NCBI RefSeq assembly: GCF_026213295.1
Contig: NC_079415.1
Span: 21,348,847 to 21,412,846 of the forward strand
Reading direction: 5' to 3'
Source: Gadus chalcogrammus
Taxonomy: Eukaryota > Chordata > Actinopteri > Gadiformes > Gadidae
Length of the DNA: 64,000 bases
Positions 7,376 through 57,376 of the stretch are shown piece by piece (position 1 is the first letter of the stretch; each line of letters opens with the position of its first letter). The notes beneath the pieces are model-generated. The model searched no databases. It was not told the origin of the DNA and was given only the letters and a program-made list of their open reading frames with translations. Made by a program: the position numbers and the translations under genes.

Positions 7376-7412
7376 CAACCTGGTCTCACAGGAATCTGTG
7401 TAATGACTACGG

Positions 7413-7770
7413 ACGCTTAACTCGAAATCCGTGGCCACATCACGGAAACACGCCGATTTCCGTGATGTGTCCACGGAATTCGCTCCAATGCAAGTTAATG
7501 ACACTGATGTTCCGTGGCTCACACACGGATCCCCGTTTCAACGAGCGAGTCGACCACGGGGATTAATTCAAAACCCGTGGTGGTCTCACTGAAACACTTA
7601 AATTCTCCTTGATGTGTCCACGGAAGTTGCTTCAATGCAAGTAAATGACACTGATATTACGTGGCACACACACACAGATTCCCGTTTCAATCTGTGTGTG
7701 TGCCAAAGTTGACCACGGCGGGGGCTTGACTCAAAATCCGTGCTGGTCTGACGGAATCACTTAAACACAT
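7413..7770 (+). repeat. Tandem repeat I in the left arm (~180-bp unit, 2 copies)
   Basis: Two diverged units share the order 'gtgtccacggaa..gct.caatgcaagt.aatgacactgat..gtggc.cacac..gat.cccgtttcaa..gaccacgg..ttcaaaa.ccgtg.tggtct'. The same pair lies in the right arm at about 56990-57340. Confidence 0.7.
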
Positions 7771-7849
7771 TCTCACTCCGAACGCGTCGATTTTTGACGA
7801 ACGGTCAGTGACTTTGGCTTCAGTTTCTGACGCAAAAGGGTACCCCTGT

Positions 7850-8250
7850 GCTTCTTTTTTCGACGCATGGGGTTTTCAACTCGTTACAATGTAACCCCTT
7901 CACGGGGGACCCGACGGCTGCGCATAGAGACGCTATGAGCATTCATCCCATTGGCTAACGGTGGACCTTGCGCTTCTTTTTTCGACGCAGGGGGTTTTCC
8001 ACTCATTGCAATGTAATCCCTCCACGGCAATATATGAAGCTATGAGCATTCATCCCATTGGCTAACGGAAGAGCCGATGGCTGCACATAGAGACGCTATG
8101 AGCATTCATCCCATTGGCTAACGGAGGACCATGTGCTTCTTTTTTCGACGTAGGGGGTTTTCCACTCATTGCAATGTAATCCCTCCACGGCAATATATGA
8201 AGCTATGAGCATTCATCCCATTGGCTAACGGAAGACCCGGTGGCTGCACA
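7850..8250 (+). repeat. Tandem repeat II in the left arm (~163-bp unit)
   Basis: The block 'gcttcttttttcgacg.a.ggggttttc..act' recurs at about 7850, 7973 and 8136, and 'gctatgagcattcatcccat' recurs at about 7933, 8040, 8096 and 8202. The right arm has the corresponding array at 56556-56910. Confidence 0.75.
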
Positions 8251-8266
8251 TTAACGGCGAAGTTAC

Positions 8267-8989
8267 TGTTGGGAAAAAATAACCTGATGAGCACATCACA
8301 TGGCAGACACATTACAATATAGTCAACTCTTGCTCTAACCCAACAAACACAAACATGATAATATATAGTCAGGTCAAGGCCGGAGCTGAAGGCCCCATCT
8401 CCCAGGCTGGCAGATGGTGGACACTCAGACAATGCACCAGTCATCCTCAAGAACGGGAGAGCCACATTCATTTATCACACAGGAGACATTTTGAAGCTCT
8501 CCCCCGTTAGAAGGAACCAAAAGATACCCCTGCCCACACCAGGGGCCTGAGAGCCACATTAAATTATCACACACGAGACATTTCAGGGGGGCACTCCCCG
8601 TTTTAATTTATCACACCGGAGACACGAGGAACTCTCCCCCGTTACGAAGCTCTCTCAGGGCCTGGGAGCCAAGACCAAGCAAAACACACAGAACCACACA
8701 CACCTCAAACGCACACACCTCATCGAGAGGAGGATACAGCATAAAAACTGTACCACACAGGGACTCTTCACCCCTTCTTCTGAAGCAGACCTTCCACGGA
8801 GGCGAAGCTCCGGACGAACCATCAGCGCTGATTAGGGACTTAGACATATTCGATTTCTCACGCTTTATGACTCTGTATAACCGTTGCTACTTTACTTAAT
8901 AAATCCAAGGTCCTCGTGCCGATAGACTTTATTACCTCTCCGTCTCATTTTATCTGGTCCAGTAGCTAGACAGACCGTTTTTCCCCACA
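8267..8989 (+). repeat. 5' LTR
   Basis: It differs from the 3' LTR at about seven positions by eye. A TATA-like 'gcataaaaactg' lies at about 8738 and a polyadenylation signal 'cttaataaatcc' near 8896. Confidence 0.85.
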
Positions 8990-8992
8990 ATT

Positions 8993-9010
8993 TGGTGACC
9001 CCGACGTGAC
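8993..9010 (+). promoter_or_regulatory. Primer binding site, tRNA-Trp
   Basis: tggtgaccccgacgtgac is complementary to the 3' end of vertebrate tRNA-Trp (..cacgtcggggtcacca) at 17 of 18 positions, starting four bases after the LTR. Minus-strand DNA synthesis would start here. Confidence 0.85.
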
Positions 9011-9409
9011 CTTTCGTTGAATTGAACCGCAACTGGGAAACGAGAGACGGAGAGCGGCGCGACCTCGGGACCCCGGAGCACCGGACCGATTCCTGCAGTC
9101 TCACCTCGCGGCCGCCCAACAAAAGGTAGGCAGAACCTGTTGATAAAATCCAAACTCTGCATAGTTATATAGGAACCACATTAGGAGGTGAGACTGTGAG
9201 AGCGGTTCGCTACGGGATATCTCGTGGGGACGAATAGGACTGCATCCCAGCATTTCCCCATAAACCCGATTGACCTTGAACGCGTGACACATCGAATATC
9301 GGCTCGTTGCATGGTGGAAGAATACCCTCGAGACCATAGGGCCTATAAGAATCGGGCATAGTGATACAAGACTACCGATGGCCAAGTAATGGATGTGTAA
9401 TAAATACAC

Positions 9410-9724
9410 TTATGTCTTAAGGGGGTTAGAGTTCCTCGGGTGGGGTTAGAGTCCCCACCTATGTCTTAAGGGGGTTAGAGTCCCTCGGGGGGGGGGGGGG
9501 GGGTTAGAGTCCCCACCTATGTCTTAAAGGGGGTTAGAGTCCCTCGGGGGGGGGGTTAGAGTCCCAACCTATGTCTTAAAGGGGGTTAGAGTCCCTCGGG
9601 GGGGGGGTTAGAGTCCCCACCTATGTCTTAAAGGGGGTTAGAGTCCCTCGGGGGGGGGGGGGTTAGAGTCCCCACCTATGTCTTAAAGGGGGTTAGAGTC
9701 CCTCGGGGGGGGGTTAGAGTCCCC
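9410..9724 (+). repeat. Minisatellite 1 inside the LTR element
   Basis: About six units of 50-60 bp built from 'cctatgtcttaaagggggtt' and 'agagtccctcggggggg', with G-runs of variable length; a partial unit continues to about 9800. Confidence 0.85.
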
Positions 9725-10199
9725 TTCTTTGTTTGTGTATTAAATAATTCTATGTGGTAAGAAGGTTAGAGTCCTTTATCAGGGTTAGAGTCCCTTTGCA
9801 GAGTAAACGGTGCCTAGGGCATGAGTGACACACAGAGAGAATAAGATAAACTAGGCTCGTTGCGTGGTGAAAGAACACCCTCGAGGACTAAGGCTCGCCG
9901 CCCTTGATAAGTGAATCTGAGGCGCCCGAAGAAGCACAACGATTTCTTGGCCATATATTCATTGCATATGCGGGGACTAACGGACAGACACCTGAACTGA
10001 CGCAGACTAGGGATAGCAGAGACCTCTCACCCCCACCTTCACGACCAAAGTGCGTGTGTATGGAGTCGAGAACGAGAGTCGGCGTGGGTGGAAGAATAGG
10101 AGAGCATGGGTGAAAGAGAGAGACAGAGAGACAGTGTGTATGCGCATGAGAGTGAGAGAAAGGCTGTGAGCGACTCTGTGTGTGCGCGTGTACGCAAGA

Positions 10200-10600
10200 G
10201 GTGATGTTTCTGTGTGTGTAAGAGGCTGTGGGAGACAGAAGGAGAGGTCCGTTGATATGTTTCTGTGTGCGTCTGCGAGAGACAGAATGAAAAGTCTGTT
10301 GATATGTTTCTGTGTGCATCTGCGAGAGACAGAATGAAAAGTCTGTTGTTATGTTTCTGTGTGCGTCTGTGGGAGACGGAATGAGAGGTCCGTTGATATG
10401 TTTCTGTGTGCGTCTGCGAGAGACAGAATGAAAAGTCTGTTGTTATGTTTCTGTGTGCGTCTGTGAGAGACAGAACGAAAGGTCTGTTGATATGTTTCTG
10501 TGTGCGTCTGCGGGAGACAGAATGAGAGAAGTCTGTTGATATGTCTCTGTGTGTGCGTTTAGAGGAGACAGAGTGAGAAAGGTCTGTTTAGGTGTGTGTG
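10200..10600 (+). repeat. Minisatellite 2 inside the LTR element
   Basis: Roughly seven units of about 60 bp containing 'gttgatatgtttctgtgtgc' and 'gtctgcgagagacagaatga'. The long minus-strand open frame here (9888-10319) is a by-product of the repeat. Confidence 0.8.
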
Positions 10601-13512
10601 TGAGAGGGAGCGAGAGAGATAGACAAGGAGAGCTAAAGTCGGAGGACGATCGAGAGGGACCATTTTCCCTCTAGAAAGTTGGAGGTAGCGATAGAGTGCG
10701 TGTTTTTCTAACAATGAACGGTTGTTTCAGGACCACGAGAAGGGACTCTGTATGGTTTTCAGGCCCAGAGTGTAATCCCCTTTCCCATATGTGTAGTCCT
10801 CCCATTTGAGGTCCCCGTCCACCATATTTGAAGTCCTCTACTCCACATCATGTTGTAGTTCCCCTCCCTAGAATTGTATGGAAGTTAGAACCTGTGAGGG
10901 TGTTTTGGTTCGGCCTGACGAGGCCTGTACCAATTTCGGTGGTCAGCTTCTAGTTTTGTGTATATAGAAATTTGGAAAGGGGGAGCAGTATTAAGTTATA
11001 TATAATAAAGTGAAAAGTTAATTGTGAATGAAGGGACAGAAGGATCTTTTTGTGTGTGAGAGATAGTTATTAGGTCTTGTTCCATGATGGGGAGTTGAGG
11101 GTGTTGCATTCCAGGCTTATCTGTTAACGGTCCTAGCTGCTGCTTGACCCTAAGGGGAGTGAGGAAGGGTGAGAGAGAGAGAACACATTTCCCCCCCCAT
11201 TTGTCGAGCTACCTTTGTGGTATAGAAGGCCACTAACGCATGTACGTTTTTTCGGTTTAGTGCATGACTTTGGAACAGCGTGGTTTCAGGCGGCTGATGG
11301 TAAACCCACCCATATTGGGCTTTGGATTTGGACATACTGGTTTCGATTTCCCTTCCCAAAAGATTGGTTTCAGTTTGCTGATGCTTAAGGTTAGACGTTT
11401 CGACGTTGGTTGCACCAACGGCGTTCTTGGATTTGCTTATCATTTAATGCGCATGGATTTGACCATTGCGCAAGGGGGGAGGTATTGAGGAGAATTAGGA
11501 CATTTTTTGAAAACAAGGTTTTTCTTCACCATACTTGCAAACAATGATTGACATCCAGCTAAATGAGTGTGAAATATAAAACAAAACAAAACAGTGTTCA
11601 ACAGCTGGGTGGAAGCAGTCCCATCAAAAGACCAAAGTGCGGCTACAGTAATCAAGTTTCTGACTAGAGAAGTCATGCCAAGGTTTGGAATTCCGTCACA
11701 AATTAGCTTGGGCGATAGGGCAGCGTTTATTCAGAAAACACTCAAACAAGTGATTTAACATCTGCATGTCAAATAAAGACTAGTCTGTGTCTACAATCCT
11801 CAAACCACAAGATATGGTGGAGAGAGGAATGGGACGCTTAAGACAAAGATTAACAAAATTAAATTAGAGTACTAAATTAAAGGACTAATGCACTACGACT
11901 GACACTAATGAGTTATCGCGTGAAAACTAACAGAACGACACATCTAACCCCGCATGAAATGCTTTAGGGTCGACCCATGCCTTCACTTAACATTCGAGGG
12001 TCCCAAAAGGGACTTCCATTAGAGTAATTAGAAATAGAATTAAGGAAAATATGTTTGAACATCTAACTGTTGTACATAAGTTTGTAATTCCAGCAAGAGA
12101 AACACAAAGTACTAGGGCCAGAGGAGGAGCCAGATGCAGACACGCCCGGAGCCGACCAACTACCCAAGGATGATGCAATCAGATTTCGGCAGGGATGGAT
12201 GGAGAGCCCAGTGAGCGATGGGCACTACAGGTGCAGCGGGTGCCGTCCAGGCTTACCTGGGGATCGAGTATACACCGGGGAGTTTTGGACGAGGGACCAC
12301 CAGAGGGGCCCGACCTGATCTGGCTGGAGAACATAGAATAGACCCCCTGCACCATTGTCCAAGAGCCCCCACGCAATGCAGCGCACCAATACATGAAGAT
12401 CATCCGGCCCCGGCGTCCTGTTTCCACCACCGTATGCTGAAACCCCACCACCACGCCCCTCCCCCCCCGCCTGTGACGTGCTAGTAACCTCTCCAGGTGG
12501 GCTGCCCCATTCCCGTCCCCGCCAACGGCACCACCCCCCACCCACCTGCTGCACCCACGTCGCCCGGACCAGGGATCTGCGTTCCGGTACCAGGGGCTGC
12601 GGCCCGTTCCCTTAAGGCTTGAGGGCGCCCCTGGCTGTATTCGCTTCTGTACGCTTCACTGTTTTTAGCCGCTCCCATATCTATGCCCGCGTCTACGCAA
12701 CCGACGCCGGGAATGCAAATGTTGTTGTTTATATCGCTGTCCCACTAGATGGAGCTCGGGGATACACACGGGCGAGATTCCAGGGGCCTTGATTGCCCGT
12801 TTATCAGATGAGGTCCTGAGCGCAGTTGAATAAAAGGGTCTAATGCTCAGGTGGCGCCTTGCGTCCACCTGCCCGTGATGACGCTCAGGACTATTCCGTT
12901 GTTCCCGTGCCCCGGGCCTACCCTGGATACCCCATGCGTGTGATTGCTTATTGTTACACGACCGGTTAACTCCTCCTCACATCCTTAGTGTGTGGTCATC
13001 TAGGGATGGGTTGAGGGGGATTGCCATTCGTTGTGTACCTCATACCTTTCTGATATTATTATTATTATTTAGGGACACGTTTCATGGTTACATTTCTTTC
13101 ATGTGATTGTTATTGTGTAGTGTTTGTGTGATTGTTGCATTTTGTTTATATTGTTATTGTTTACTGTTAGTTTTGTTGTTGCATTTTGTTGTTGTTGTTA
13201 TGGTTTGGTGTTGGTTTTGTTGTGTATCATCTGCTGCCAGTATTGTTGGTATTGTCTGCTCGCGATGTAAGGCCGGGGTGGATGCCACCCCCTAGGTGGG
13301 GTGTGTATGGCATACCCATGTCTGAGGCAGGGGTAGCGTTTCTCCCACGTGGTTTCCCCATACACCCGGCCCAGCGAGTTGTTTTAGTCCCATGCTCATG
13401 GTTGTTTGTTTTTATGACCATTTTGCCTTCCTTCTGTAATTTCTAATGGTAGTCCCGCGCTGGAGTCCTATCCCTCGTACCCCTAATGAGTAAAAGTCGT
13501 CTTGCGACGACT

Positions 13513-13523
13513 TGAGGGGGATA
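13513..13523 (+). promoter_or_regulatory. Polypurine-tract candidate
   Basis: ttgagggggata directly precedes the 3' LTR, where plus-strand priming is expected. Confidence 0.5.
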
Positions 13524-14245
13524 TGTTGGGAAAAATAACCTGATGAGCACATCACATGGCAGACACATTACAATATAGTCAACTCTTGCTCTAACCCAAC
13601 AAACACAAACATGATAATATATAGTCAGGTCAAGGCCGGAGCTGAAGGCCCCATCTCCCAGGCTGGCAGATGGTGGACACTCAGACAATGCACCAGTCAT
13701 CCTCAAGAACGGGAGAGCCACATTAATTTATCACACAGGAGACATTTTGAAGCTCTCCCCCGTTAGAAGGAACCAAAAGATACCCCTGCCCACACCAGGG
13801 GCCTGAGAGCCACATTAAATTATCACACACGAGACATTTCAGCGGGGCATTCCCCGTCTTAATTTATCACACCGGAGACACGAGGAACTCACCCCCGTTA
13901 CGAAGCTCTCTCAGGGCCTGGGAGCCAAGACCAAGCAAAACACACAGAACCACACACACCTCAAACGCACACACCTCATCGAGAGGAGGATACAGCATAA
14001 AAACTGTACCACACAGGGACTCTTCACCCCTTCTTCTGAAGCAGACCTTCCACGGAGGCGAAGCTCCGGACGAACCATCAGCGCTGATTAGGGACTTAGA
14101 CATATTCGATTTCTCACGCTTTATGACTCTGTATAACCGTTGCCACTTTACTTAATAAATCCAAGGTCCTCGTGCCGATAGACTTTATTACCTCTCCGTC
14201 TCATTTTATCTGGTCCAGTAGCTAGACAGACCGTTTTTCCCCACA
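13524..14245 (+). repeat. 3' LTR
   Basis: Starts tgttggg and ends ccccaca, about 99% identical by eye to the 5' LTR; followed by ttac and the resumed arm sequence. Confidence 0.85.
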
Positions 14246-14814
14246 TTACAGTGAAATCTGTGACATTCCTCAACACAACTACACCAACGTGTCCTTGTTA
14301 ATTACAAAACATGTATGGGTTAAGTTTATGGGCATCAGTTGTCCTGTTTTGTGTTTTGATTGAGAGAAAAAATCGTTTTTTGATCAGTGTTGGGTAGCTG
14401 AGGTCGTTGCTATAGAGGCCACGTCCGTGCGCTTTTTTTGACAACTGACAGAGCAACCCTTTCTCATCAAAATTACGTTCCTAGAGAACTATTCGGCATT
14501 CTCAATTACGTTTGTCTAAAAAACGTATTTTGTCCGTGATTACGTTTTATTGAACATATTGTAATGACCTCGCCGGTGACATAACGATGTCGAGTCATTA
14601 GTAATTGAAGGAACTTTTAATGAACCAAAACCAGGTCACTGAAACCCGTAACCAACGGCAGTAATCCCACCCAAAACAAACCCCGGTTACCCCGGCAACC
14701 CCCAACACGGTCTCACTCATAGACATCATATAGGTAGACGCCCCCTTCGGCCTTGGGCGGCATAAATCGTCGGCGCCATCTTGGTACGGGAGTTATTTCG
14801 TCTTCGGAGTGAAG

Positions 14815-15760
14815 ATGCCTACTTCATGCGCCGCTTGGGGGTGCACTACCGTCAGGACGATTCAAACGAGATCGCAAGGAATTACCTTTCACAAGTAAGA
14901 CTAAACAATTGTTTCTATTTGTAATTGTAAAATTCAGTCATGTCACGTAGATCATGTGTTATGTTGAGAGCTAAGAGCTGTTGAGACAGCTAAGTTGCCG
15001 CCAGAATCAGACTATAGCTAGTCTAACGTGAAATGGACATGGTGAGCAAAGCCTTATTCTATCGTTCGTCAACAGGAGATAATATTGTCAAGAAATATAG
15101 GATATACAGTATACATATATATATATATATATATATATAATCTACCACTACTTGCTTGTGAGTAATTACAATGTATGTATAATGTAATTATATAGCATTT
15201 ATGGTCGCGACGGAAAGCTGCGTTTCGGCTGAGCGACTGGCCTTAATTTCTCTCTGTGATGTATTTAAAAAAGAGACTAGATTAAAACAAAGGCTCAAAA
15301 CATGCCACTGTATATGTAATGGTTCTACAATATATGAAGGTGTCACGTAATGAATGAAACTACGGAAAAAATGTCACGATACTCTACATGCACCTGTGAG
15401 ATGCACGTGCAGTCAGTCGCCGGCCGAAATTGACGTTTTAAACGTTATTTCTATTTAAATGTTTTTCTTTTTTAAAGATACATCTGTATTATGAATCTGA
15501 CTGACTGGCTAGCTAACCTTTCTCGCAATTTTAAGGTTTCCCAAAGAGAAGCAGTTGAGGAGACAGTGGGAAGTGGCTGTGAAAAGGGAAGACTTTTCTG
15601 CCAATGAGAGGTCAATGCTCTGTAGCCAGCACTTTCAGCTGGAGGATTTTGACCGGACAGGCCAAATTGTCAGGCTCAGGGATGGAACTAAACCATCTGT
15701 GTTCAGTTTCCCAACACATCTCAAAAGAGTAAGTGCATCACTAAACTTGCTGAAAATGGT

Positions 15761-15827
<67 letters not shown>

Positions 15828-18800
15828 CATTTGGAATGATTGAGAATGAGATACACCTGTTCAAGTATTTTGTTCTTCGGTTTTAGAAAGTGCCAGCCAG
15901 GACTACACAAGCCTCAAGGAAGGCTGAAGCGAGCCTTGTAATTGACTGTTCTTTACAATCATTACAAGTCACTGAACCTTCACCTACCTACCTTGTGAGT
16001 ATTTACACTAGCTATGCCCCAAAACAGCAGTGAGCATCATGGCATCATAAACATTACTCACTACTGTTTTGTCCTTTTTTACTAGGAACACCCTTATGCA
16101 TTGCCTCCATCTCCCACTCTTCTCAAGACTAGACTCAGTGAAGCCCTGGCTAGGGTGGAGAGTCTTGAGAAAGAGATGAGGAACTCAAAGGCCCGAGAGT
16201 GGAGGGCGAAGAAAACAGTGCGTTGTCTTCTGGAGGACCTCAGGGGGAAGAACCTCATAAATGAAGAGCTGCACGAGAGGCTTGACTTATACTCAGGTAA
16301 CATTGAAATTAAACTTTGAATGTCAATTATATCTTGGGGCTGTAACCAAAGAAATACAACTGCAATAATGTGTTAAAATGCTTGGCTTGTCTGAATTTCA
16401 TATATCAGACTTAAACTCCAAATACCTGACGTCTGTAATATGCCCCCATTCATAGTTTGAATAGCATCTGGCACAGACAAAAGCCAACAATCATAGTCTG
16501 ATAGCTCTAGCTTCAAGACACACAATAGCCAGGTACCTTTGTTGGCAGGTGTTTATGGGCACCTGTTTAGAGCAATCAGTCATGGTTCCTGGCTTTTGTG
16601 CATCTTTAAGCTAGAGCTATTAAGTCAATGATTGTTGGCTTTGGTCTACAGCCACGACAAGATTACATTTTTCATTCATATGGCCTTGCCTGGAAATAAA
16701 CACATTAGCCTATTGGTGTTTTCATAATGACATTCATACTCTTTCAGTCACTTACTAATTACTCTGTGCTATCTGCATTTCAGATCTTCCATTAGGCCTC
16801 CTGTCCAAACAGGGCCACGAGTACACTAAAGAGCAGAGGGAGTTTGCCCTCACTCTCCACCTGCACGGGCCCAAAGCCTACTCTTACCTGAGAGAGTCTC
16901 TCCACCTCCACCTACCACATCCACATACATTGCAAAGGTATTTGCCATTACATTTAATTGCACTTTATTGATAGGAAATTACTGGTTCAAATACATTTGT
17001 ATTATATTATTGCTACTTAATAATAACTACTTTTTCATTTGATAAAGGTGGATGATCTCTGTGGATTCCAAGCCTGGACTCAACACCATGATGCTGGACA
17101 TGTTGAGAAGAAAAAGAGAGGAAGATCCAGTGAAGTATGGACGTGTGGCGCTCATGCTGGATGGCATGGCCATCAGGAAACATGTCCAGTACAGTCCACA
17201 TTCCCAGAAAATGACCGGATTTGTGGACATGGGGGATGGCCTAAACGAGACAGATATTGCCACTGAGGCTCTGGTTTTTATGGTGGTTGGCCTACAAGGC
17301 CATTGGAAGGCTCCAATTGCCTACTACCTGACCAAGTCTCTGACGCCCGACACACAGAAGGTCCTGCTGGTACATGCGCTGGAGGCCCTGCATGAGCGTG
17401 GCATCCGGGTCATGTCCCTCACAATGGATGGGCATGCATCAAACGTAAGCATGTGCAACCAGCTGGGGTGCCAGCTAAAGGCCAACCCTTGTGAGCCTTT
17501 GAAAACATTTTTCCCCCATCCTGCGACTGGCGAGAGGGTGTTTGTCATGATGGACGCTTGCCACATGTTGAAGCTGGCAAGAAACATGCTGCAAGCGTAC
17601 AGCCCAATCTGTAGCAGAACTGGCCTCATCAACTGGGACTACGTTGTTTGTTTGAACGATATTCAAACAAAGAATGGACTGCATGCTGCCAACAGGGTCA
17701 CTGAAAAGCACATTCAGTTTGACTCACAGAAGATGAAGGTGTCCCTGGCTGCACAGACGCTGAGTCGCTCTGTGGCAGTAGCGCTCCGAACGCTGAGGGA
17801 CCTGGGGTATCCACGCTTCACCCTCTCTCTAGCGACAGCCGAATTCATTGAAGTAAGACTAGATTCAAACATTGTTTTCTTATCAAAGGGTCCTGGCCAT
17901 CTTCTTCATCTTCATCTTCTTCCTTTCTATTTCCTAAACAATTTATTTTAGATGATTGACAGGCTGTTTGACATTATGAACAGCCGCAATCCCCGTGCCA
18001 AAGGATTCAAAGCCCCCCTGGGATCTTTGAATTGGACAAGGAGTGTGGAACTCTTGTCCAGAGGCCGGGAGTACTTAATCAGTTTGGTGATGAAGGATGG
18101 AACTCCCCTTCATCGTTCAAAGAGGTATTTTAAATAGTGACTCTTCCATATGTGCATGCTCTGCTTATGCATGCATATGATGCTCTGTTCTCTTGTTCCG
18201 ATCTTTTTGCTGTCTGCGATTTTTCAGTTCATACAGGTGAATGTGGAAATGTCCATGAAATGTCCATCTACAACTTTCAAACTGACAAAATATTTTCTTT
18301 TTAAGGTACCTGTCTGTCATGGGGTTTGTCATCAACATTGACACCCTAATGCTGATGTGTCCTGAGCTGCTTCAGAGTCAGCAATATATCTGCACCTACC
18401 GGTTCAGCCAGGATCATTTGGAGCTCCTTTTCAACTCCATCAGGGCATCAGGTAAGGATCTCAGAAGTTTCTAAATTAATTAAATTGTCTTTCCAAAAAA
18501 GTCTTTGACGTCTGAAAAGAGTAAATATCGGTATTAAGTGTTGTGTGTTTTTGGTTTTTAGGGGGCTGGAACAACAATCCCTCCGCAGGCCAGTTCCAGG
18601 GCATCTTCCGCCGGCTCATGGTCCGATGTGGTGTCACACCGAGCACTTCAGGGAATGTGGCACCACAGGATGAGACCGTGTCTCTGTCGGCTGTAGAGAT
18701 GTCCTCTCCCTCTGAAACGGAAGAGCTTGAGGTGCCCTTCGTGAATGTGTCTGCGTTGATTGGGGACCACAGCTACTTGCCAACCCGCTTTGGTGGCCTA

Positions 18801-19286: not shown

Positions 19287-19316
19287 CCTAGATTAAATTA
19301 TTATATAATATCATAT

Positions 19317-19658
19317 TGTGGCGACTCCTACCCCTGGGGAGTCTGGGTAATGGGGTATTCATAACGTTGTTTGGGGAAAAGGGGGTTTATTGTCTTTAGA
19401 TAAGTTGTTTATGTTATTAGGTTAAGTGGGGTTAACGGGTTTGGGGTCTCTATTGTTTGTGTGTTTATTGTGTGTAGTGTTGTCGGCAACCATTACCCGG
19501 AGTCGTATGTCCGTCGGTCAGGTGTGCCGTGTTTTCTGTTATGTGTGCGTGTTTGAATAAAGGCAGCTCTCGGGGTCGTGCGGTGTATTGAGGCACGAGA
19601 GTTGCGCCGCCATTTAAACCTGGGCTCCCGTCTCGTCCTTCCCGCGCTGCTCGCCACA
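19317..19658 (+). mobile_element. Solo LTR, 342 bp, inside the P element
   Basis: Begins TGTGGCGACTC and ends CTCGCCACA, with a short inverted end (tgtggcga/tcgccaca) and a 4-bp ATAT flank on both sides (19313-19316, 19659-19662). A polyadenylation signal gaataaagg lies near 19556. It stands 31 bp after the P transposase stop codon. The AT-rich flank makes the duplication less certain. Confidence 0.75.
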
Positions 19659-21734: not shown

Positions 21735-21803
21735 TATTCTGACCTTGGGTGTCTTGAAAGGCGCCTCTAAATTAAATGTATTATTATTATTATTATTATT
21801 ATT
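21735..21803 (+). repeat. LINE 3'-tail module in the left arm
   Basis: 'gaccttgggtgtcttgaaag', 'gcgcctctaaattaaatg' then (tat)n. The same module lies inverted at about 51540-51600 in the right arm and a third copy at 23079-23130. Confidence 0.7.
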
Positions 21804-21990: not shown

Positions 21991-22003
21991 TCCGCTCCAC
22001 TCA

Positions 22004-30555: not shown

Positions 30556-30562
30556 GCAATAG

Positions 30563-44512: not shown

Positions 44513-44578
44513 GACAAAAAAGGGTTCAGCCGTAGACAAAGTATAAAGGACGTTTCGCATAATCTGCTGAACCCAAGG

Positions 44579-45985
44579 TTGCCTATGTCGAAACATGGCA
44601 ACTTTTGCATTCCTGCTGTAACCACTAAGAGAGTAAACAAAGGGACACGTAGACACACTGCTAACCTCAAAAATCTCATACATATTTCCTCCAAACCAAA
44701 AACAACCTTAAAGCCTATCAACAACACCATCAGGATGGGTCTACTTAATGTTAGGTCTCTTAATAACAAATCATTTTTAGTTAATGATTTTATTACCACC
44801 TCTAAACTGGATTTTATGTTTTTAACTGAAACATGGCTGGAACAAAATAACAGTGCAACCGTTCTGATAGAGACAGCTCCTCCCAACTATAACTTTTTTG
44901 ATGCATGTAGATCTGGAAAAAGAGGTGGAGGGGTTGCTGTTATATTTAAAAATGATTTTCAGGGGAAACAGATGTTATTTTGTGATTTTCCATCATTCGA
45001 ATACCTTTGTGCTGTATTGAAATGCTCCCCCAGAGTTCTCCTATTAATTATTTACAGGCCACCCACATACTCTGCAAATTTTTTCGATGAATTCACAGAA
45101 TTATTGTCTAGCATCTCCACAGACTTTGACTGTCTAGTTATAACTGGTGACTTCAATTTTCATACTGATGATTTGAATGACAAGCGTGCAAAAAAACTTT
45201 TTACCATTTTGGACACATTTGAACTGTCCCAACATGTGAAAGAGACTACTCATTGTAAGGGCCACACTCTAGACCTGGTTATCACAAAGGGCCTCAATGT
45301 TTCTGATCTCTCTGTGACTGATCCTTCCTTGTCTGACCACTTTTGTGTTTTCTTTAATATATCTTTTATTCCCGACATACAGACAAAATCAAATACTGTC
45401 AAAAAACGGTATATCAATGAAGAATCGTATGTACTTTTTAGAAAGGCCATCTACTTACTACCACCTCTCAACCCATGTTCTGCTGATGATCTTGTAGAAA
45501 ACTTTAATTTGAAAATTTTGAAAATCATGGATGTCATTGCACCGTATAAGGTTAAAACGATTTCTGGAAAGCAAAAGGCACCCTGGAGAAAAGCTGCCTC
45601 TGTAACAGCACAGAAAAAAGAATGCAGGAAGGTTGAACGCATCTGGCGTAAAACAAAACTTCAAATTCACCATGATATCTACAAAGAGAGCCTCCGTGCC
45701 TACAATTCAGACTTAAAAAGTGCTAGAGAAACATTTTTCTCCAATATCATTAAATCCAATAATAATAATGCAAAAACCCTATTTGCAACTGTTGACAGAC
45801 TGACCAACCCCCCAACACAGCTTTTTATACTGATAAAATTGAAGGCATCAGACGCGCCATCAATATCTCCACTTCAAACAAAAATGTTGGACTACCACCC
45901 TGTTCAGGCAAAAGTAAAGTGGCAGGGATGGCATGCTTTAATGTTATTGACTCTAAAACTCTTGTGGAAACTGTTACACAACTAA
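44579..45985 (+). pseudogene. L2 ORF2, endonuclease half
   Basis: This frame encodes the APE-type endonuclease that nicks target DNA: MGLLNVRSLNNKSFLVNDF, LDFMFLTETWLEQ (catalytic E), GGGVAVIFKNDF, LLLIIYRPPTYS, LVITGDFNFHTDD (D, N), and SDHFCVFF (SDH). The linker runs to about 45830 and then loses similarity; the reverse-transcriptase half continues in another frame. A frameshift and some loss between 45830 and 45930 break the polyprotein. Confidence 0.8.
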
Positions 45986-47418
45986 AGCCATCCACCTGTT
46001 GCCTTGATTCTTTACCTACCAACCTCTTTAAGAATGTTTTTGACTGCCTAGCAATAGACATATTGCAGATAGTTAACAACTCTCTCCAGTCAGGCAACTT
46101 CCCAAAAGCCCTGAAAACTGCAGTTATTAAACCCCTTTTAAAAAAGCGGAGCCTAGATACCTCTATTATTAACAACTACAGACCAATATCAAATCTGCCC
46201 TTCATAAGTAAAATCATTGAGAAAGTTGTCCTCCAGCAACTTAATCACTTCCTGGCATCAACTGGTTGTTATGGCACCTTCCAATCAGGATTTCGACCCC
46301 TGCACAGCACTGAGACCGCCCTCATTAAAGTTGTAAACGACATCCGTCTTAACACAGACTCTGGCAAAACCTCAATACTAATGCTACTAGACCTCAGTGC
46401 TGCATTCGACACTGTAGACCATACAATACTTTTGGACAGGTTAGAAAACTGGGTGGGGCTTTCAGGCACAGTCTTAAATTGGTTCAGATCCTACCTACAA
46501 AATAGGAACTACTTTGTTTCCATCGGCGACTTTGTATCAGAATCAACCAACGTGATGTGTGGAGTCCCACAAGGTTTGATCTTAGGACCCTCTTTATTCA
46601 ACATCTACATGCTCCCACTAGGGCAAATCATGCATAATAACAATATTGACCATCATTGCTATGCTGATGACACGCAAATCTATGTATCGCTATCACCAAA
46701 TGACTATCGGCCCATAGATCTGCTGTGCCAGTGCATTGAGCAAGTGAAAGACTGGATGTGCCGAAATTTCCTTCAGCTAAATGAGGATAAAACTGAGATA
46801 ATTGTATTTGGTGCTAAAACGGAAAGGCTTAAAGTAACCCAACACCTACACTCTCTGTCCCTGAAAACCTCAATCAAAGCCAGAAACCTAGGGGTTATCA
46901 TGGATTCTGATTTACATTTCGAAAGTCACATCAAATCAGTTACAAAATCTGCATATTATCACCTTAAAAATGTAGCAAGACTTAGAGGGCTCATGTCCAC
47001 AGAAGACTTACAAAAACTTGTACATGCCTTTATCACTAGTAAGCTTGATTACTGCAATGGTCTCCTTACAGGTCTCCCAAAACAAACTCTAAGGAAGCTT
47101 CAGCTTGTTCAGAATGCTGCTGCTAGAGTTTTAACAAAGACCAAAAAATTTGAACATATTACACCAATTCTTAAATCGTTACATTGGCTTCCTGTAGGTC
47201 AGAGAATTGATTTTAAAATCATGTTGCTAACCTATAAATCCCTACATGGTTTAGGCCCAAAATATTTAACTGATATGCTTCCACTACATAAGCCTTCTAG
47301 AACACTAAGATCTTCTGAGACCAATCTGTTAATTATCCCCCGAGTAAACAAAAACATGGGAAAGCAGGATTTAGTTACTATGCAACAAATAGCTGGAATA
47401 AACTCCCTGAGGATTTAA
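45919..47418 (+). pseudogene. L2 ORF2, reverse-transcriptase half
   Basis: It encodes VTQLKPSTCCLDSLPTNLFK, NNYRPISNLPFISKIIEKVV, QSGFRPLHSTETALIKVVND, LMLLDLSAAFDTVDH (first catalytic aspartate), GVPQGLILGPSLFNIYMLPL and HHCYADDTQIYVSL (the YADD active site), then the thumb and C-terminal region typical of L2. A second frameshift near 47365 separates the last codons, which continue in another frame as SWNKLPEDLRLAPTLSTFKT. Reverse transcription by this copy is unlikely without repair of both shifts. Confidence 0.82.
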
Positions 47419-50400
47419 GACTTGCCCCAACTCTGAGCACCTTCAAAACAAGATTGAAGACTTTTATGTTTGCTTTAGCTTTCTGCTAAATCTTAAATAC
47501 TGTAGCTTTATTTTACTAAAATGCCTTTTTAACTTTCCCTTTATTTTCTATTTTTACCAGAAAAATACATGATCTGATACCAGAGAGAAAGGTTGCTGGG
47601 CTAGAGTCCTAGAAGCTGGGTTAGAGTCCTAGAATATTGTCCTTTAGGTCGGGTTGTAGTCCCGACTTGGGTTCCAGAGACTGTTGATCTGATCTTAAAT
47701 AACTTTCAATTTAATTTTCTCACTTTCTTAAATACATTGCACTTTCAATTTTACTTACTAAAAAGCCTTTTTAACTTTCTATTTTACTAATTTCTTTGCA
47801 TATGTTTTCTTTTACTTATCTATTATTTTATTTTAATGTATAACAATGTTTATATGTGAAGCACTTTGAGTCTGCCTTGTGTATGAAAAGTGCTATATAA
47901 ATAAAGTTGCCTTGCCTTGCCTTGCCTTGAATGTCTTGGCATGAACCATTTAGAGGTGTGTTGATAATATGTAAAATAACACTCAAAAAATATACCTTTC
48001 TCCATGTGCCAGACGTCATAGTACTGGTTGATGCCAGTTTCCCTCAAGAACTTCTGTATTTGCGGGTGTCGGTCTGTCACTATGCAGTCAAGGGTCACCC
48101 TGCGCTCCTCCAACAATGCAAGGCTTCTCTTCAGGCCCTCCTTTTCCATGTGGTAGCTGCCGCCTACCTCGTTGCTCTATGAAAACAATCAGATGCATAA
48201 GTAAATGCTCCCTAAGGGGTTAGTTACTAAGCACTACTTAGCAGTATTTATTTATTGTTACACTAATGTCTCTGTTGCAATATAGCTTGAATGTTATTCT
48301 CCCTTGTAAGTGGCTTTGGATAAAAGCGCCTGCTAAATGACTGAATGTAAATGTAAAAGGTGCCACATGGGCAAATTTGTAAGTTGTAGTGTAAAAAAGC
48401 AACTTACAGTTTGATCAATTCCCACTCACCTGAACCAACTGGACATCTATCACATTGTTGGTTTTCAGGTCCATCACTGTGTAGCTACCAAATTTTGCAG
48501 AGTGGCCTATGAAAACATTGTATAATTTTAAAAGTAACCCTCCTATGGTATTTTATCATATACTCATTTCTGTGCATTATTCAAATACCTGGAGAGTCGG
48601 CTCTCATGTCGCCACCAATTATGGTATTTTCCCCACTAAGGCGCAGCAGCATGTCATCCTGAGAAGCCTTCCATTTGTTGATAATAGCAGGTTCAACATA
48701 TGTACGTGCATGCCGACGAAAGGTGTCGTACAGAAACACTTGAAGGTGCATAGCCGAAGACCTGAATGTGGACATAGATGACAAAAAGGGTTGTTGTAAA
48801 CATTCCTGTAATTGTGTCTGGAGCTGGTAATTCTTATAGGTATTGTTTAGCACTTCATGCTTTATTCAACAATTATGACCAAATTCACTTACCCTTTGCA
48901 TTTTGAAAAATGAGGCTCCACTGACATAGACTGCCACAGAGAGCTGAAGATTGCCGGCTGGCGTGTTATTGAGGAGTGGTTTGCTGTCCCAAGTCCGGCG
49001 GTACTCACAATGGGGGCACTGCTGCACCACCGAGATGAATGTCCCGAGCCGTCTTGATTGAATGGTGCATGGGCGCTGGCACATAGGGCACATCCTGAAC
49101 AGCTCCATAAGGCAGGTCTCATAAACAATGTATTTCTTCACCTCATGGATTGGAGTTGTTGCCACATCTCTGTAAATAAATAGAATTCATGATATAAGCC
49201 ATGATGCATAGCACGAAAACTTGCACACACACAAAGAAATTTGAGTTACTCACGAAAGGTCTGAAATGATAGTATTGCTAGGATCATAGGTGCTATCCAG
49301 CCCTTGACATGTAACTATTGATGAGCTGTCCTCAAGATCAAGTTCATCCTCCTCCTCCACCTCCTTCAGACGAGGTCCCTTTACAGGTGTTGAAGTTAGG
49401 ACAGGCGTCAGGGCAGTGAGGGGAACAGTGGACGTGCCAACACAACAGTCTTTCCTGGACACAGTAGCCTGGACACCTTGAACATAAATGTTGAATATAA
49501 ACAAATCGATTAATTGTTACATCCCTTCTGCAGTACAAATTCAAGCATTAACTGGTGCAATAGCTAGATGGTGAACCTGATCAAAACATTTGTGAGAGAT
49601 CAATCTATGTGCCTTCACTTTTGAAATGAGGCTGAAGAGTCCGTAGAGATAGCTGTGTACCAACAGTGTGTTTTATTATCTCTGGAGGATCTGTTTGACA
49701 ACCAATTTCTCTTGTTGCTGGAAGCAGAAGTGACTGTACTGAAGCCTGAAGGAGGAAAAAGAAGGGGGTGGGGAAATAGTTTACATTTTGAAACCTTACT
49801 TCAGATGAAGCACAACATTTATGACCCACTTGTAATACAAAGTTTTCATTCAACAGCTACAAAGCCTACAGACTGATAACAGGATAAGTCTTGAGATTCA
49901 TCTTTTGTTAGAGTATAGGCACTGATCAGTTGTTTCACCTCAACTATAAATTGTGTAGGGCTACAACAGCAAACCAAGGGCATACTGGCCGCATCCATTG
50001 TGGATAATTTTCAGTCTCGACAAGGTGTAAACAAATAGAAAATCACCACGATGTTTTTCAAGTTAATTTCCAACCCTGCTAGACAACATTTTAACAAGGA
50101 TTACTTTCAGAAATGATCAAGGTTTAAAATGAATCGATCGTCGGTGCACTGCTTTGCTCTATGGAATGGAGAGAAACATTCTAACCAGGTGGAGCACTAA
50201 CGTTAGCTTTGGCTAAATTGCAATATAAGAACATGCTAGTTCATGCTTAACTGCGACAGAAACACGACAACATGTAACAATACAAAATCAGTACCACCAA
50301 GCATTACTTTCAGAAATGTTCAAGGTATAGCTAGTTCGAAAATCAATCCAACACACAGTGGTGCACGGTTCTGCTTTATGGAATGGAGAGAAACATTCTT

Positions 50401-50980
50401 AGCAGACGCAGGTCTAGCAGTAGCTGCTAACGTAAGCTTTAGCTAAACTGCAAAATAAGAACATACTAGTTCATGCTTAACTGCTCAGAAAAACGTTTTT
50501 TTTTAAGTACTTACATCTCCATCTGCTGACTCCACACGGATAGTAGGTACAGAAACCTCTGTCACACGAAGTTTGCTGGCGAATCCAGCTCTGTACTGTC
50601 CAAGATTCTCAAAGCAGTCTTCTGTAAAATGGTTTGCTCAAACCACAAGATTCTTGCCTATTGTTGCAGGGACATGAACATCAAAAATGAAATCGAGCCA
50701 CGCAGTTCTTCGATTTCCCTTGGTTGGGAGAGAATGAAATGATTTGTGTGGCTGTTTGCAGCCAACTACACAACACTTCATGTGGGACATTTTGCTAGCC
50801 ATCGCAATCTTGCCGTTTTTCTTGTGCGAAAAACGGCTGATCAAAGATGGCGGATCTTCAACTAATTTAGAGGGTGTGGACTTGAAAGGTGGGAGTGGTT
50901 CCATGCCAATTTCCCTAACCCGACGTCACATTAGGAGAGCCAACCAAAAAGTGAGTTTTTGTATAATATGTCCCCTTTAA

Positions 50981-51439
50981 ATGTTGTCGACTCAGTCACC
51001 TATTGCATCACTTCCTTTAGGGCTTCGGCCTCCTAATTGATCATTGTAGTAGGCTATAATTGAATGCCTTCTTTCATATATATATGATACCTCCACCACT
51101 GGGACGTGGCAACAATTCTCCAAATCCATATGGGGAGGGGGGGGATGCTTGTGGACAGTAGGGGTTTACCCTAGACATAAATAGGAAGTCAAATCAGGAG
51201 AAGGAATGACCTCTCACAAATATTTATTTAAGAAATTGTTTCAAATAACCCTCCCTCGTTAAATCAATGAGCTTGGTGTTTTGCTTTCAAAAATTAGTTA
51301 TAGAAGAAGTCTAAACTGCAGAAAATAAACACATCCAAGCTGCCTTTTAAGGATACCTTGGAATATCTGTCGATTTTTCAACCATCGGACCCTAGTTTAC
51401 GACAAAAACAACCCAATTGACGGCAGCTCCTTTGCCGCG
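50981..51439. other. Unassigned core sequence next to the right arm
   Basis: Between the Kolobok end and the arm; no gene or repeat recognised. It may be original core of the giant element. Confidence 0.35.
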
Positions 51440-52646
51440 TGGTTTTTAGAGCCACGAGTATTAGAGGGGGCGGTATAGAGCAACCACCATAGCAACCATG
51501 ACGGTCAAGTGACTGGATTCAGCCCTGTTGAAAAAAATAGAATAATAATAATACATTTAATTTAGAGGCGCCTTTCAAGACACCCAAGGTCAGAATACCT
51601 CCCTACACACTCAGTAGTAGATTAATGATATTTAAATTATTATGACCATGAAGTCTTTATTTGCATGGGTTTACATTTCGTTGTGTAGCATGGAAAAATC
51701 TGAGAAACACTCCCGTTCAGAATGCATTGGTTTACACTTCGTTCTTTGGAGCACGGTTATTTTTATTTATTTATTTATTTTCCGTTTTTGAGGAGTTGAG
51801 GATTTTTCTGCAATAATCCAAAATCCAATGGAAAACCCGTTGGCTTTTTGTCAAGGGAACCGAGGGCGACGCTCACTTCCGGGTTTGCCAAAATACGTCA
51901 TCCCTCTCTCCACCACTCTATACTGTAAAAACACATGTTCAAGTTGAATGATAATGCATGAATTTATTCTTTATTCTGCCATAGTAACACGGTAAATAAA
52001 TGGCAAAAATAGGCTGAGAACGAATTCGTATTTACGATATTGTAGCGACCCTGGGACAGTTAAATAGTTTGTGTGTTATGTGTTGCATTGTATTTCGTTG
52101 TCCGTTATGCCAGTTGTTCTGTGTGCATGTATTGTAATGTTCTTCTTGTCAATCAGTGTGGGGGCGAATCATTAGGTCAGCTGGGGGAGGGCCTTGGAAG
52201 AACACGAGGGTGGGGGCCTGCACGTGAGTGAGACCGTGTTGGGGGTTGCCGGGGTAACCAGGGTTTGTTTTGGGTGGGATTTCTGCCGTTGGTTACGGGT
52301 TTCAGTGACCTGGTTTTGGTTCATTAAAAGTTCCTTCAATTACTAATGACTCGACATCGTTATGTCACCGGCGAGGTCATTACAATATGTTCAATAAAAC
52401 GTAATCACAGAAAAAATACGTTTTTTAGACAAACGTAATTGAGAATGCCGAATAGTTATCTGGGAACGTAATTTTGATGAGAAAGGGTTGCTCTGTCAGT
52501 TGTCAAAAAAAGCGCACGGACGTGGCCTCTATAGCAACGACCTCAGCTACCCAACACTGATCAAAAAAACGATTGTTTCTCTCAATCAAAACACAAAACA
52601 GGACAACTGATGCCCATAAACTTAACCCATACATGTTTTGTAATTA

Positions 52647-55203
52647 TTATTATTATTTTTTTTTTAATACTTTATTTTTTAGAATCACCACGTGTCTGTA
52701 CATTCAAATGTACACATGAAACAATGAGACAAAAAACACAACAACATTGACAACAAACTAGACACGCACATAAAGCAACATAAACAAACAAGCAAAACAA
52801 ACAAACAAACAACTACATTGACAACAAACTAGACACGCACATAAAGCAACATACACAAACAAGCAAAATAAACAAACAAACAACAAAAAATAAATAATAA
52901 TAATAATAAAAAAAGAAAAAAAAAAGCAAGCAACGAGACAAGAGACATATAAAACAGATGGAGAAAAATAATTAATAAAAAAATAATAATAATAATAATA
53001 ATAATAGACGAGTAGGATAATCACAGATATAGCATTATGATTAAGTTAATTATAGTAGGTTGACCACTTGGCCCATCTTGAATTGAATTGAATTGAAAAA
53101 GTTTTTATTTCAAACAAGTAAATAATAATAAAAAATAATAATAATAAACAATCAAATAAATGAAACAAGTGGACAGTTACAATAAAGTAATGTTTACACA
53201 CAATGAAAACCACAAAAGAAGAAACTGTCTTACACTTGCTTTACCTGTTCGAAAAGGGGTGAGAAGAAGAAAACTTGAACTCATATACTTTGAGGTTTCC
53301 CCTCATTTTATATGTTATATACTCCATTTTGTGTACCTGCTGAGTGGTGTCCCTCCATTTTTCTATTGTGGGCGGGGTTTTTTGGAGCCAGTGTCTGGAG
53401 ATTTGTTTTAAAGCGGTTATACGCAGCACTCTAAGCAAGTAGTTGTCTTTTTCCTCATGGGGTGTGTCTATGGTCTTTCCCAGCAGTATATAGTCTGTAT
53501 TTAGTTCAACAGCACATCCTACAATGTGACAGATTTCTTTCTGTACCTTTTCCCAAAATATCTGCAATACAGGACATGACCAGAATATATGTTGTACGTT
53601 AGCGTATGATTCTCCACATTCCCTCCAGCACTTTGTTGTGATTTTATTATTGTATTTAGCTTGCTGCACTGGTGTTATAAAGAATCGTGATTGTATTTTC
53701 CACGCATATTCTCTCCAATATGGCGATACAGTAGTTGTGTGAACATTCTGATTCATTTCCCTCCAGCGCTCCTCTGATATGCCTAAATTCAATTCTTCTT
53801 CCCATTTCAGTTTTGCTTTTGTGTCTTGATGTTCACAGTTATTTTCCAGAATAGTATATACTGCCGAAATTTGATTTGGGACTTTGATTTTATCATAATT
53901 CTTTATCAAAAATTGTACTAATGGATGTATGTCTCTGCTGGTCTTGTTTTTAATTTCACTATTTTGAATATAGCTTCTTATTTGTAGAAATCGGAAGAAG
54001 TGGGAATGTGGCAAATCATACTCCTTGCTTAAAGATTCAAATGATTTGATCCCCTTTTCATTCAAGCACTGTCCAAAAATGATCAGTCCCTTTTGTGCCC
54101 AGATATCAAAGGCTTCATCAATTTTATTAGGCATGAATTCGGGATCTTCTTTTATCTCTCTCAGAGCCACCAAGTCTGTCTTTATTTCAACAGTGTTTTT
54201 AATTCTGGCCCAGATTTCCAAAGTATTTCTGATTGATGTATTGTCTTTTACTGGTGCTTTTCGTTGGTATTTTGTACAAAAGGGAATAGTTTTTAATGGA
54301 CCCTGACACATAAACATCTCTATTGTTCTCCACTTTGCTTCTGAACTATGATTTAACCAGGTTCGTATGTGCTGCATTTGTGCTGCCATATAATAGTATT
54401 TCAGGTTTGGGAGAGCAAGTCCTCCCTTCTCCTTTGCCATTTTCAAGGTTTTCATTTTAACCCTCGGTTTTTTATCATCCCATATAAATTTACCAATCAT
54501 TGTATCCCAAATTTTAAAGGTATTTGTGCATAAATATAGTGGTATTGTCTGGAATAAAAACAAAAAACGGGGTAGTACATTCATTCGGACTGCATCTATT
54601 CTTCTACCCAAAGAGCATATAGCTGATCTCCACCTATTCATATCCTGTCTAATATGTGCCTCCAAACATTTATAATTCAGCTGGTACAATAGTTTGTTAT
54701 TCTGTGGTAGTACAGTTCCCAGGTATTTAATTCTGTCCTTATCCCACTGCCATAGATAATTACTCTTTAAATCGCTGTTTACTGGATCTCCTATAACCAT
54801 TGCTTCACACTTCTGTATATTTAGTTTATATCCAGATACCTTACCATAGTTATCAATGACGCGCATTAGAGCTGGTAGTGATTGTTCTAAGTTTGTGAGA
54901 TATACAACCACGTCATCGGCATATAAAGCTAATTTATGAGTTTGCTCTGCTATTTTAAAGCCCTCTATTTCATTAGTTTCTCTAATATATGCTGCCAGGG
55001 GTTCGATACAGATTGCATAAATTAAAGGGGATAGGGGATCTCCTTGTCTTGTTCCTCGTTGTAGCTCGAAACTGTCAGACAGAGTCCCGTTGACTCTGAT
55101 CTGTGCTTTTGAACTACTGTACATAGCTCAAAGCCATTTGATGAAGTTATCATGAAAGCCGAATTTACTGCAAGTTTCAAATATAAAGGGCCATGACACC
55201 CAC
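52647..55203 (-). mobile_element. 5'-truncated L1-type LINE
   Basis: The 16-bp direct repeat acatgttttgtaatta lies on both sides (52631-52646, 55204-55219), and the left arm has the single empty copy near 14300. The 3' end (low coordinates) has a T-rich (att)n border, an A-rich UTR with a duplicated block (aacaaactagacacgcacat at 52751 and 52823) and 'ttgaattgaattgaattg'. Only the C-terminal part of ORF2 remains. Confidence 0.88.
53241..55203 (-). pseudogene. L1 ORF2 C-terminal part (reverse transcriptase and tail)
   Basis: The 627-aa open frame begins MYSSSKAQIRVNG, then LQRGTRQGDPLSPLIYAICI (the RQGDPLSP motif) and ALYADDVVVYLTN (the active-site ADD), GYKLNIQKCEAM, then the long L1-specific tail with WDDKKPRVKMKTLKMAKEKG, GGLALPNLKYYYMAAQMQHI and HIFWSCPVLQIFWEKV. 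Upstream of the ATG the same frame shows CSKFGFHDNFIKWL followed by one stop, so the domain is truncated and broken at its 5' side. Endonuclease and ORF1 are absent. Not able to retrotranspose. Confidence 0.85.
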
Positions 55204-55333
55204 ACATGTTTTGTAATTAACAAGGACACGTTGGTGTAGTTGTGTTGAGGAATGTCACAGATTTCACTGTAACTTCGCCGTTAATGTGCAGCCACCGGGT
55301 CTTCCGTTAGCCAATGGGATGAATGCTCATCAT

Positions 55334-56547
55334 CAGTGGCGATTTTGGTTTGGAAACTCTGGTGGGGCCCATGCAGGAAAATATTATAACGAAATCCAGA
55401 AATACCACATATTACTACCATCACAACAAAAACAGTAGCAAGTGACAGAGGGGACCAAAATTGCAGCTGAATAATGCCATCACTCAAACGCGAATCTGAC
55501 GACATATATTAGGCTATTATAGCAATAGCACCACCAAATGGCAGCGTTCAAGACCTCACAATATCAAAACTCAAGAAAACAACAACGTGGCAACAATAAA
55601 AACACAACGGCGCACACCCTTTACACAGCAATCAATATACAAAGCCACCACTCACAATATAGCCTACCAAAAAAAGAAGTATTGTTTAAGTTGTATTAAG
55701 TTTGCAGGCCACCATACTGTACAATTAACAATGAATCTAGCCTGATAGAGTGGTTGCCTATTCAGACCTGGATAATCCTGGGTGAAAATTTAAGTAAGTT
55801 TGGTCTAAGATGGTAATTACCTGTGCTTTAAGGACAGTGCTGTCTGGTCTCCTTTGTGTGGCTGAGGTGAAACACAAGCATTTTTTTTCCGCTTGAACCA
55901 CTCCTGGTTGAACGATCTATTCTTGTCCTTTCCCTCTTGAATAATGATTAAATCCGTCGGGCGATGTGGTCCCAAACGTTTTATCTCCAACTTCTGTTCA
56001 AGTGCTAAATCTCACATGAGACAGATACTCAACACGATTCATCATTTAATGAATGAAACGTCCATTTGTTGTTATTTACTGTAACAGTAACTGTAACTGT
56101 AACAACGTTAGCTAGTTAGCAAGATCTGATCGGCTCCCGCCGTAAACCCCGCCCTTTCTACAAATCAGCCAATGAGAAGAGCTTTGGGGCACTAAACTTC
56201 TGGCCCCACCGCCGAAACAGAAGCGGGCGCTACGCACGCGCTTGCTCGCGCAACAACAGCACCAGTTTTCTACACTGCAGCAGACAGGGCCATCTCGGCT
56301 GGGCCCCACCGAGCGGAACAGACGAGACGGAGCAACAAACTATTTCACACACAACTACTACACTACAACAATTGCGTTCATCAAATTAAAACTGCAGACA
56401 TGTAATTAATTATTAACAATTAATGTATTATTAACTTATGCTCAATGACATTTTTGAAAATAAAAATAAAAGTATAATCGTGCCCTGCACGGCAGCGTTC
56501 TCTGGTGGGGCCGTGCCCCACTGGCCCCTACTGCAAAGACGCCACTG
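55334..56547. mobile_element. hAT-type MITE, copy 2
   Basis: Ends cagtggcg/cgccactg, 8-bp duplication CTCATCAT (55326-55333, 56548-56555), body nearly identical to copy 1 at 39945-41153. It is inserted into tandem repeat II of the right arm. Confidence 0.92.
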
Positions 56548-56555
56548 CTCATCAT

Positions 56556-57340
56556 ATATTGCCGTGGAGGGATTACATTGCAATGAGTGGAAAACCCCCT
56601 GCGTCGAAAAAAGAAGCACATGGTCCTCCGTTAGCCAATGGGATGAATGCTCATAGCGTCTCTATGTGCAGCCATCGGCTCTTCCGTTAGCTAATGGGAT
56701 GAATGCTCATAGCTTCATATATTGCCGTGGAGGGATTACATTGCAATGAGTGGAAAACCCCCTGCGTCGAAAAAAGAAGCGCAAGGTCCACCGTTAGCCA
56801 ATGGGATGAATGCTCATAGCGTCTCTATGCGCAGCCGTCGGGTCCCCCGTGAAGGGGTTACATTGTAACGAGTTGAAAACCCCATGCGTCGAAAAAAGAA
56901 GCACAAGGGTACCCTTTTGCGTCAGAAACTGAAGCCAAAGTCACTGACCGTTCGTCAAAAATCGACGCGTTCGGAGTGAGAATGTGTTTAAGTGATTCCG
57001 TCAGACCAGCACGGATTTTGAGTCAAGCCCCCGCCGTGGTCAACTTTGGCACACACACAGATTGAAACGAGAATCTGTGTGTGTGTGCCACGGAATATCA
57101 GTGTCATTTACTTGCATTGGAGCAACTTCCGTGGACACACCAAGGACAATTTAAGTGTTTCAGTGAGACCACCACGGGTTTTGAATTAATCCCCGTGGTC
57201 GACTCGCTCGTTGAAACGGGGATCCGTGTGTGAGCCACGGAACATCAGTGTCATTTACTTGCATTGGAGCGAATTCCGTGGCCACATCACGGAAATCGGC
57301 GTGTTTCCGTGATGTGGCCACGGATTTCGAGTTAAGCATC
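56556..57340 (-). repeat. Subterminal tandem repeats of the right arm
   Basis: Mirror image of repeats I and II of the left arm: 'atgggatgaatgctcatagc' recurs at about 56638, 56696 and 56800, and the 'gcgtcgaaaaaagaagc' block recurs at about 56600, 56765 and 56886. Confidence 0.75.
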
Positions 57341-57376
57341 CGTAGTCATTACACGGATTCCTGTGGGACCAGGTTG

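Follow-up and report, generated by a model that had tools for sequence, protein, structure and literature searches.

A single foldback insertion swollen to 50 kb by nested elements in Gadus chalcogrammus and its plausible link to KDZ transposases

The window analysed here is a 64,000-bp stretch of the Gadus chalcogrammus genome (C4:21348847-21412846 of a 629.9-Mb assembly), and all positions below without a contig or locus label refer to it. It holds an insertion spanning 50,001 bp, with outer ends at 7376 and 57376, which is flanked by exact 8-bp copies of TCTGAGAG at 7368-7375 and 57377-57384. The terminus CAACCTGGTCTCACAGGAAT at 7376 has its counterpart in the complement of CAACCTGGTCCCACAGGAAT at 57357-57376, and the terminus shared by the whole family is CAACCTGGTC. 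The two octamers are identical, and the outer borders and the target site duplication proposed in the initial annotation were confirmed. The left flank carries a reading frame at 6295-7375, which we take to belong to an LRRC3-like gene, and the insertion lies within or just past its coding end. A protein search returned two relatives of this frame, of which the one named comes from Boreogadus saida. In the right flank, a fragment at 57426-57581 resembles the centre of the inserted element (about 72% identity) and is apparently a dispersed repeat, while the repeat at 58404-59719 recurs in two pieces (96% and 88% identity) inside a KDZ transposase locus on C13 (L045:1801-3065). Scanning the window for Rfam families and tRNAs gave no hits.

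The two arms of the insertion, aligned with nested inserts left out, are identical at 2,108 of 2,158 positions (50 differences, 2.3% divergence), in agreement with the net length of about 2.15 kb previously given for them. The subterminal tandem repeats that had been described were also recovered, with offsets of 146 and 163 bp, and they lie inside the arms as in foldback elements. The left arm (plus strand) begins with an outer part bearing these repeats (7376-8266, half-unit positions 1-891) and continues in segments at 14246-14717, 20421-20579 and 21258-21902, the last of which ends the match with the right arm at half-unit position 2079 or so. The right arm (minus strand) comprises an outer part whose terminus equals that of the left arm (56548-57376), a segment at 55204-55333, an inner part at 50977-52646 (half-unit about 941-2538), and the palindrome centre together with the inner part of the right half-unit at 37772-38297. 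The right arm of a shorter copy on C20 served as the half-unit reference, the remaining copies being followable only in part. Mapped on it, the right arm reaches the centre (about 37772) with no loss other than a small central gap, and the left arm covers positions 1-2079 only. The inner ends formerly placed at 21904 and 51440 are true break-points of the arm match, but neither is an element terminus, because 21903 is an insertion point, where the left arm halts and a P-like terminus starts, and because the right arm runs past 51440 to 50977 and then beyond a TTAA-flanked element to about 37772. Judged from this mapping, the window copy is a foldback element with one half complete and the other truncated.

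About 45 of the 50 kb consist of nested insertions, at least seven in number, six of which (the LTR, P, small MITE, hAT MITE, LINE and TTAA inserts) possess their own target duplications. Names from profile searches are limited to the frames of P, DDE_Tnp_4 and reverse transcriptase type, and the remaining type names are presumed from the end sequences. The left arm is interrupted by an LTR retroelement (8267-14245, plus strand; 4-bp duplication TTAC), whose two LTRs (8267-8989 and 13524-14245) show 6 differences in 722 sites (0.8%), by a P element (14718-20420, plus strand; termini CATAGACATC...GATGTCTATG, 8-bp duplication GTCTCACT), and by a small MITE (20580-21257, plus strand; terminal inverted repeats AGGTGCGGCCACACCAGACGCGTAT, 3-bp duplication TAA) that is presumably Harbinger-like. 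The fish P element has identical 25-bp termini and carries P/THAP9-type transposase frames at 17046-17951 and 18525-19286. This transposase (17046-19286) was considered as the foldback's own and rejected, since its host element has other termini and a duplication of its own. The P-like terminus that adjoins the left arm (5' end, 21903-21998, plus strand; CATACACATCTTATATGATAGACG) was so labelled from its likeness by eye to the terminus at 14718. It has sister matches at C23 and C10, and its other end was not found within the window.

Next to it lies a cluster of nested DNA transposons (21999-32605), with members at 21999-22698 (21-nt inverted ends), 22699-27438 (inverted ends, 3-bp AGT, DDE_Tnp_4 frame at 25388-25864) and 27441-32605 (36-nt inverted ends). 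A low-copy repeat with a multi-copy protein follows (32606-37771; frames at 33609-34597, minus strand), and the inserted material up to 37771 meets the palindrome at its hairpin centre. The sampled part of this repeat (35300-37300) has copies on C15, C23 and C7 with 92-96% identity per listed piece, one 880-bp piece on C23 showing 90%, and the protein has 31 relatives in public data and no Pfam match at E 0.01. The idea that the core is captured host DNA was dropped, given that this 2-kb sample is repeated at three other loci, and the transposon ends on much of the remaining core also disfavour it. The right arm is interrupted by a MITE that we take from its ends to be hAT-type (55334-56547; 8-bp duplication CTCATCAT), by a presumably L1-type LINE (52647-55203, minus strand, ends approximate; duplication AATTACAAAACATGT, poly-A side at 52647, reverse transcriptase frame at 53241-55127), and by a 12.7-kb TTAA-flanked element (38298-50976; ends AGGTGACATATTATA...TATAATATGTCCCCT). 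The latter contains a LINE-type reverse transcriptase frame (45796-47418) and a hAT-type MITE (39945-41153; 8-bp CTTCCACA).

The search for an empty site, which the initial annotation had suggested, was answered by a protein of Boreogadus saida that runs on from the left flank to the right, with only one copy of the duplication, in frame, between them (junction residues DYDTEQCALR followed by DIYRRFLFLAR). The joined window flanks match this protein over 83 aligned positions at 85.5% identity, while in the unjoined window the alignment stops at the left border and picks up again at 57378. The protein is an unnamed gene model whose last approximately 30 residues lie in a dispersed repeat. Together with the identical outer octamers, this empty site bears out the view that a single insertion, and not two, took place.

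Sister copies are abundant. With up to 3 mismatches allowed, a 25-base pattern of the end had 499 matches genome-wide (239 forward, 260 reverse; the places of 100 were listed), compared to none for a control pattern. The first 601 arm bases also match many places, several of them as inverted pairs, among the 40 of 658 candidates scored. Other arm pairs, for which a search had been proposed, do exist in the genome, and shorter relatives are among them. Besides the window copy, pairs with both ends in one locus span 553 bp to 10.9 kb, the larger ones holding sequence from outside the half-unit, and the copies read that are free of obvious foreign sequence measure 0.55 to 6.4 kb. The C20 copy is a near-perfect palindrome of 6,364 bp that lacks long reading frames and has flanks agreeing at 6 of 8 positions. 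Each of its half-units is about 3.2 kb long, and the two are 97.3% identical over 3,021 aligned positions, so that long inverted arms make up most of the element. A transposase core common to the family was rejected, as ten core segments share little with one another or with the window among the matches listed. In addition, 148-bp units are repeated at length in a related arm on C11 (L022:253-4424), where a transposon arm is apparently on its way to becoming a satellite, and on C1 (L010:1030-8294) one family copy is apparently inserted in the palindrome centre of another.

The flanking octamers agree at 6 or more of 8 positions in 6 of the 11 end pairs read in the genome (the window pair counted), a level that none of 110 mismatched pairings of flanks attained. 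Exact 8-bp duplications occur in the window element and in a short copy on C16. In the other five pairs only 0-2 of 8 positions agree in register, which indicates that some pairs are not clean insertions; one pair on C16 agrees once shifted by one base, and no agreement exists at four (C1, C22 and two readings at C4). In Galileo, a P-superfamily element of Drosophila, chimeric copies with non-matching flanks are described in the available text of PMC3573991, suggesting that exchange between copies may have occurred here too.

Regarding the size of the insertion, the idea that all 50 kb moved together with the nested elements as a single giant draws on the exact duplication at the outer borders and on a second pair of the same ends on C11, which lie 53.6 kb apart with 7 of 8 flanking positions in agreement. 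However, the sister arms that could be followed are unbroken at the insert sites of the window (half-unit positions 690-3002 in the left arm of C20, 592-2510 in C12 and 591-3002 in C22), C20 and C22 being intact at all seven sites and C12 at six, and no copy with the same large content was found among these arms. Furthermore, each arm insert sits in one arm only, with its own duplication, and the LTR divergence (0.8%) is below the arm divergence (2.3%), as would be expected had the LTR element inserted once the foldback was already in place. The latter figure is no clean clock, since arms differ by about 2-7% between loci; for nesting after landing, the unbroken sister arms are the stronger evidence, the comparison of divergences being weak alone. 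We thus regard transposition as a single giant unit as very unlikely, and the intrinsically giant element envisaged earlier gives way to the alternative raised with it, namely a core filled by nested elements. It is equally improbable that KDZ transposases mobilise units of at least 50 kb in vertebrates, with the window and C11 pairs as cargo-laden giants, although the spacing of the C11 pair leaves a small chance that large units move. Two separate shorter elements in opposite orientation might be suspected from the 29.5 kb, mostly of other repeats, between the matching parts of the arms. Yet the outer flanks have a duplication in common, other copies show no termini at the inner borders, and the empty site covers both arms, so that this reading is hardly credible.

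A single foldback insertion enlarged by nesting leaves the question of its mover, for which the initial annotation had guessed at the relevance of KDZ/Zisupton. The 8-bp duplications fit this group, and two lines of evidence, KDZ exons on C11 and arm blocks near KDZ genes, make the guess probable, not proven. Between the C11 ends lie KDZ exon pieces, which were recognised and picked by eye and then joined; the joined pieces matched the KDZ profile with an E value of 2e-6 (28.1 bits, barely above the cut-off of 26.6) and the CxC3 profile with 3.3e-7, above its cut-off. The interval was read except for about 9.8 kb (C11:61300-71099), an assembly gap starts 9 bases outside its right end, and a DDE_Tnp_4 frame is also present in it. 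It is conceivable that the KDZ gene of C11 is itself an insert, like the P element of the window. The KDZ profile has 22 matches in the genome. On C13, the region upstream of a KDZ gene contains a block that matches arm positions 389-1097 (711 bp) at 93% identity and is adjoined by a different, 193-bp array, and two KDZ copies on C8 with near-equal scores have the arm block at a similar offset (8.3-8.4 kb). In total the block lies upstream of KDZ in three of four copies with near-equal scores, the one on C66 being outside the 17 of 749 block matches listed. The block also occurs with no listed KDZ gene nearby, sometimes as inverted pairs, again among those 17 of 749 matches, which leave out the query's own location. 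For a family pair with its own transposase, which had been proposed as a further search target, the C11 ends with KDZ exons between them are a candidate, but a complete element was not delimited. Among the copies read, none was an intact KDZ element with CAACC ends on both sides close to its gene; at the C13 copy, where 9.5 kb were read, the CAACC end had only three matches, at chance level (5 mismatches of 17). The sole close relative of the C11 KDZ exon, on C70, showed no end and only short dispersed C11 matches in the 3 kb read. A tblastn search of the window with the six C11 exon pieces returned nothing at E 0.01, as is expected of a non-autonomous derivative. With this result and the P transposase assigned to a nested element, the earlier statement that no transposase of the element's own was identified stands.

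Based on these sequence associations, a KDZ/Zisupton transposase is probably the mover of the family. A hAT or P-superfamily transposase in its place is possible, though we consider it unlikely. Duplications of 8 bp can come from all of these groups, according to the accessible parts of PMC12730594 for hAT and PMC10983969 for P; palindromic repeat-armed elements of Atlantic cod are classed as hAT in the text available from PMC12368964, and the P relative Galileo has foldback arms (PMC3573991, in part). On the other hand, the P/THAP transposase of the window belongs to a nested element with other termini and not to the foldback, and KDZ genes are associated with the family twice, the genome-wide transposase search having covered KDZ.

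In the portions of the literature at hand, the nearest report to the window family is gadMor-hAT-1784. As described in the available part of PMC12368964, gadMor-hAT-1784 and -8043, from Atlantic cod inversion breakpoints, are likewise gadid, non-autonomous and palindromic with tandem-repeat arms, but they are classed as hAT and have arms of approximately 600 bp with units of 167-169 bp, against 146 and 163 bp for the offsets here and 148 bp for the units in arrays, and this likeness is one of description only. Galileo, in the excerpt of PMC3573991, likewise has tandem repeats within long arms, two-arm copies devoid of a transposase, and arms that grew longer by recruiting inner sequence; it differs by 7-bp flanking sequences, a P-type transposase and arms of up to about 1.26 kb in the species concerned, against about 3.2 kb in the window family. 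For Zisupton, 8-bp duplications are reported in the accessible part of PMC12730594, and KDZ genes adjoin the arm block or sit between the same ends here, whereas the window element lacks a transposase and is nearly all arm. In Pristionchus, inverted ends of Zisupton were found and target duplications were not, according to the part of PMC9297572 available, and the available text of PMC4022104 holds no mention of Zisupton. Teratorn, Maverick and other giant transposons are likewise tens of kb long, but such giants carry their own genes in the unit (PMC6431247, as far as available), whereas the size of the window element comes from nested repeats. No gadid foldback family with KDZ linkage appears in the titles and abstract openings listed, mostly from non-subscription literature.

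We thus consider it highly probable that the locus harbours one non-autonomous foldback insertion of about 6 kb, swollen to 50 kb by nesting, and probable that a KDZ transposase moved it in trans. This account starts from the observed ends, their duplication, the empty site of a relative and a family of shorter palindromic copies. An almost wholly palindromic foldback with two half-units of about 3.2 kb would have inserted once on the 3' side of the LRRC3-like gene, duplicating 8 bp of target, and would then have grown from about 6 to 50 kb as nested elements entered it independently at least seven times. The inner part of the left half, about 1.1 kb long, may have been lost by a break near the hairpin centre, either through hairpin-prompted breakage or through a deletion around the P-like insertion. 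The KDZ (Zisupton-type) transposase would act in trans on the subterminal repeats.

The insertion is real, single and nested, and it was of ordinary size before nesting. It offers a worked case of how an apparent giant transposon can arise from nesting, and the features that tell the two apart are sister copies, an empty site and the inserts' own duplications. The link to a KDZ transposase is plausible and testable, and the elements described here are probably a foldback family for these poorly described transposases. The family is abundant in a gadid genome, and repeat-armed inverted elements have been tied to gadid inversion breakpoints in the available text of PMC12368964.
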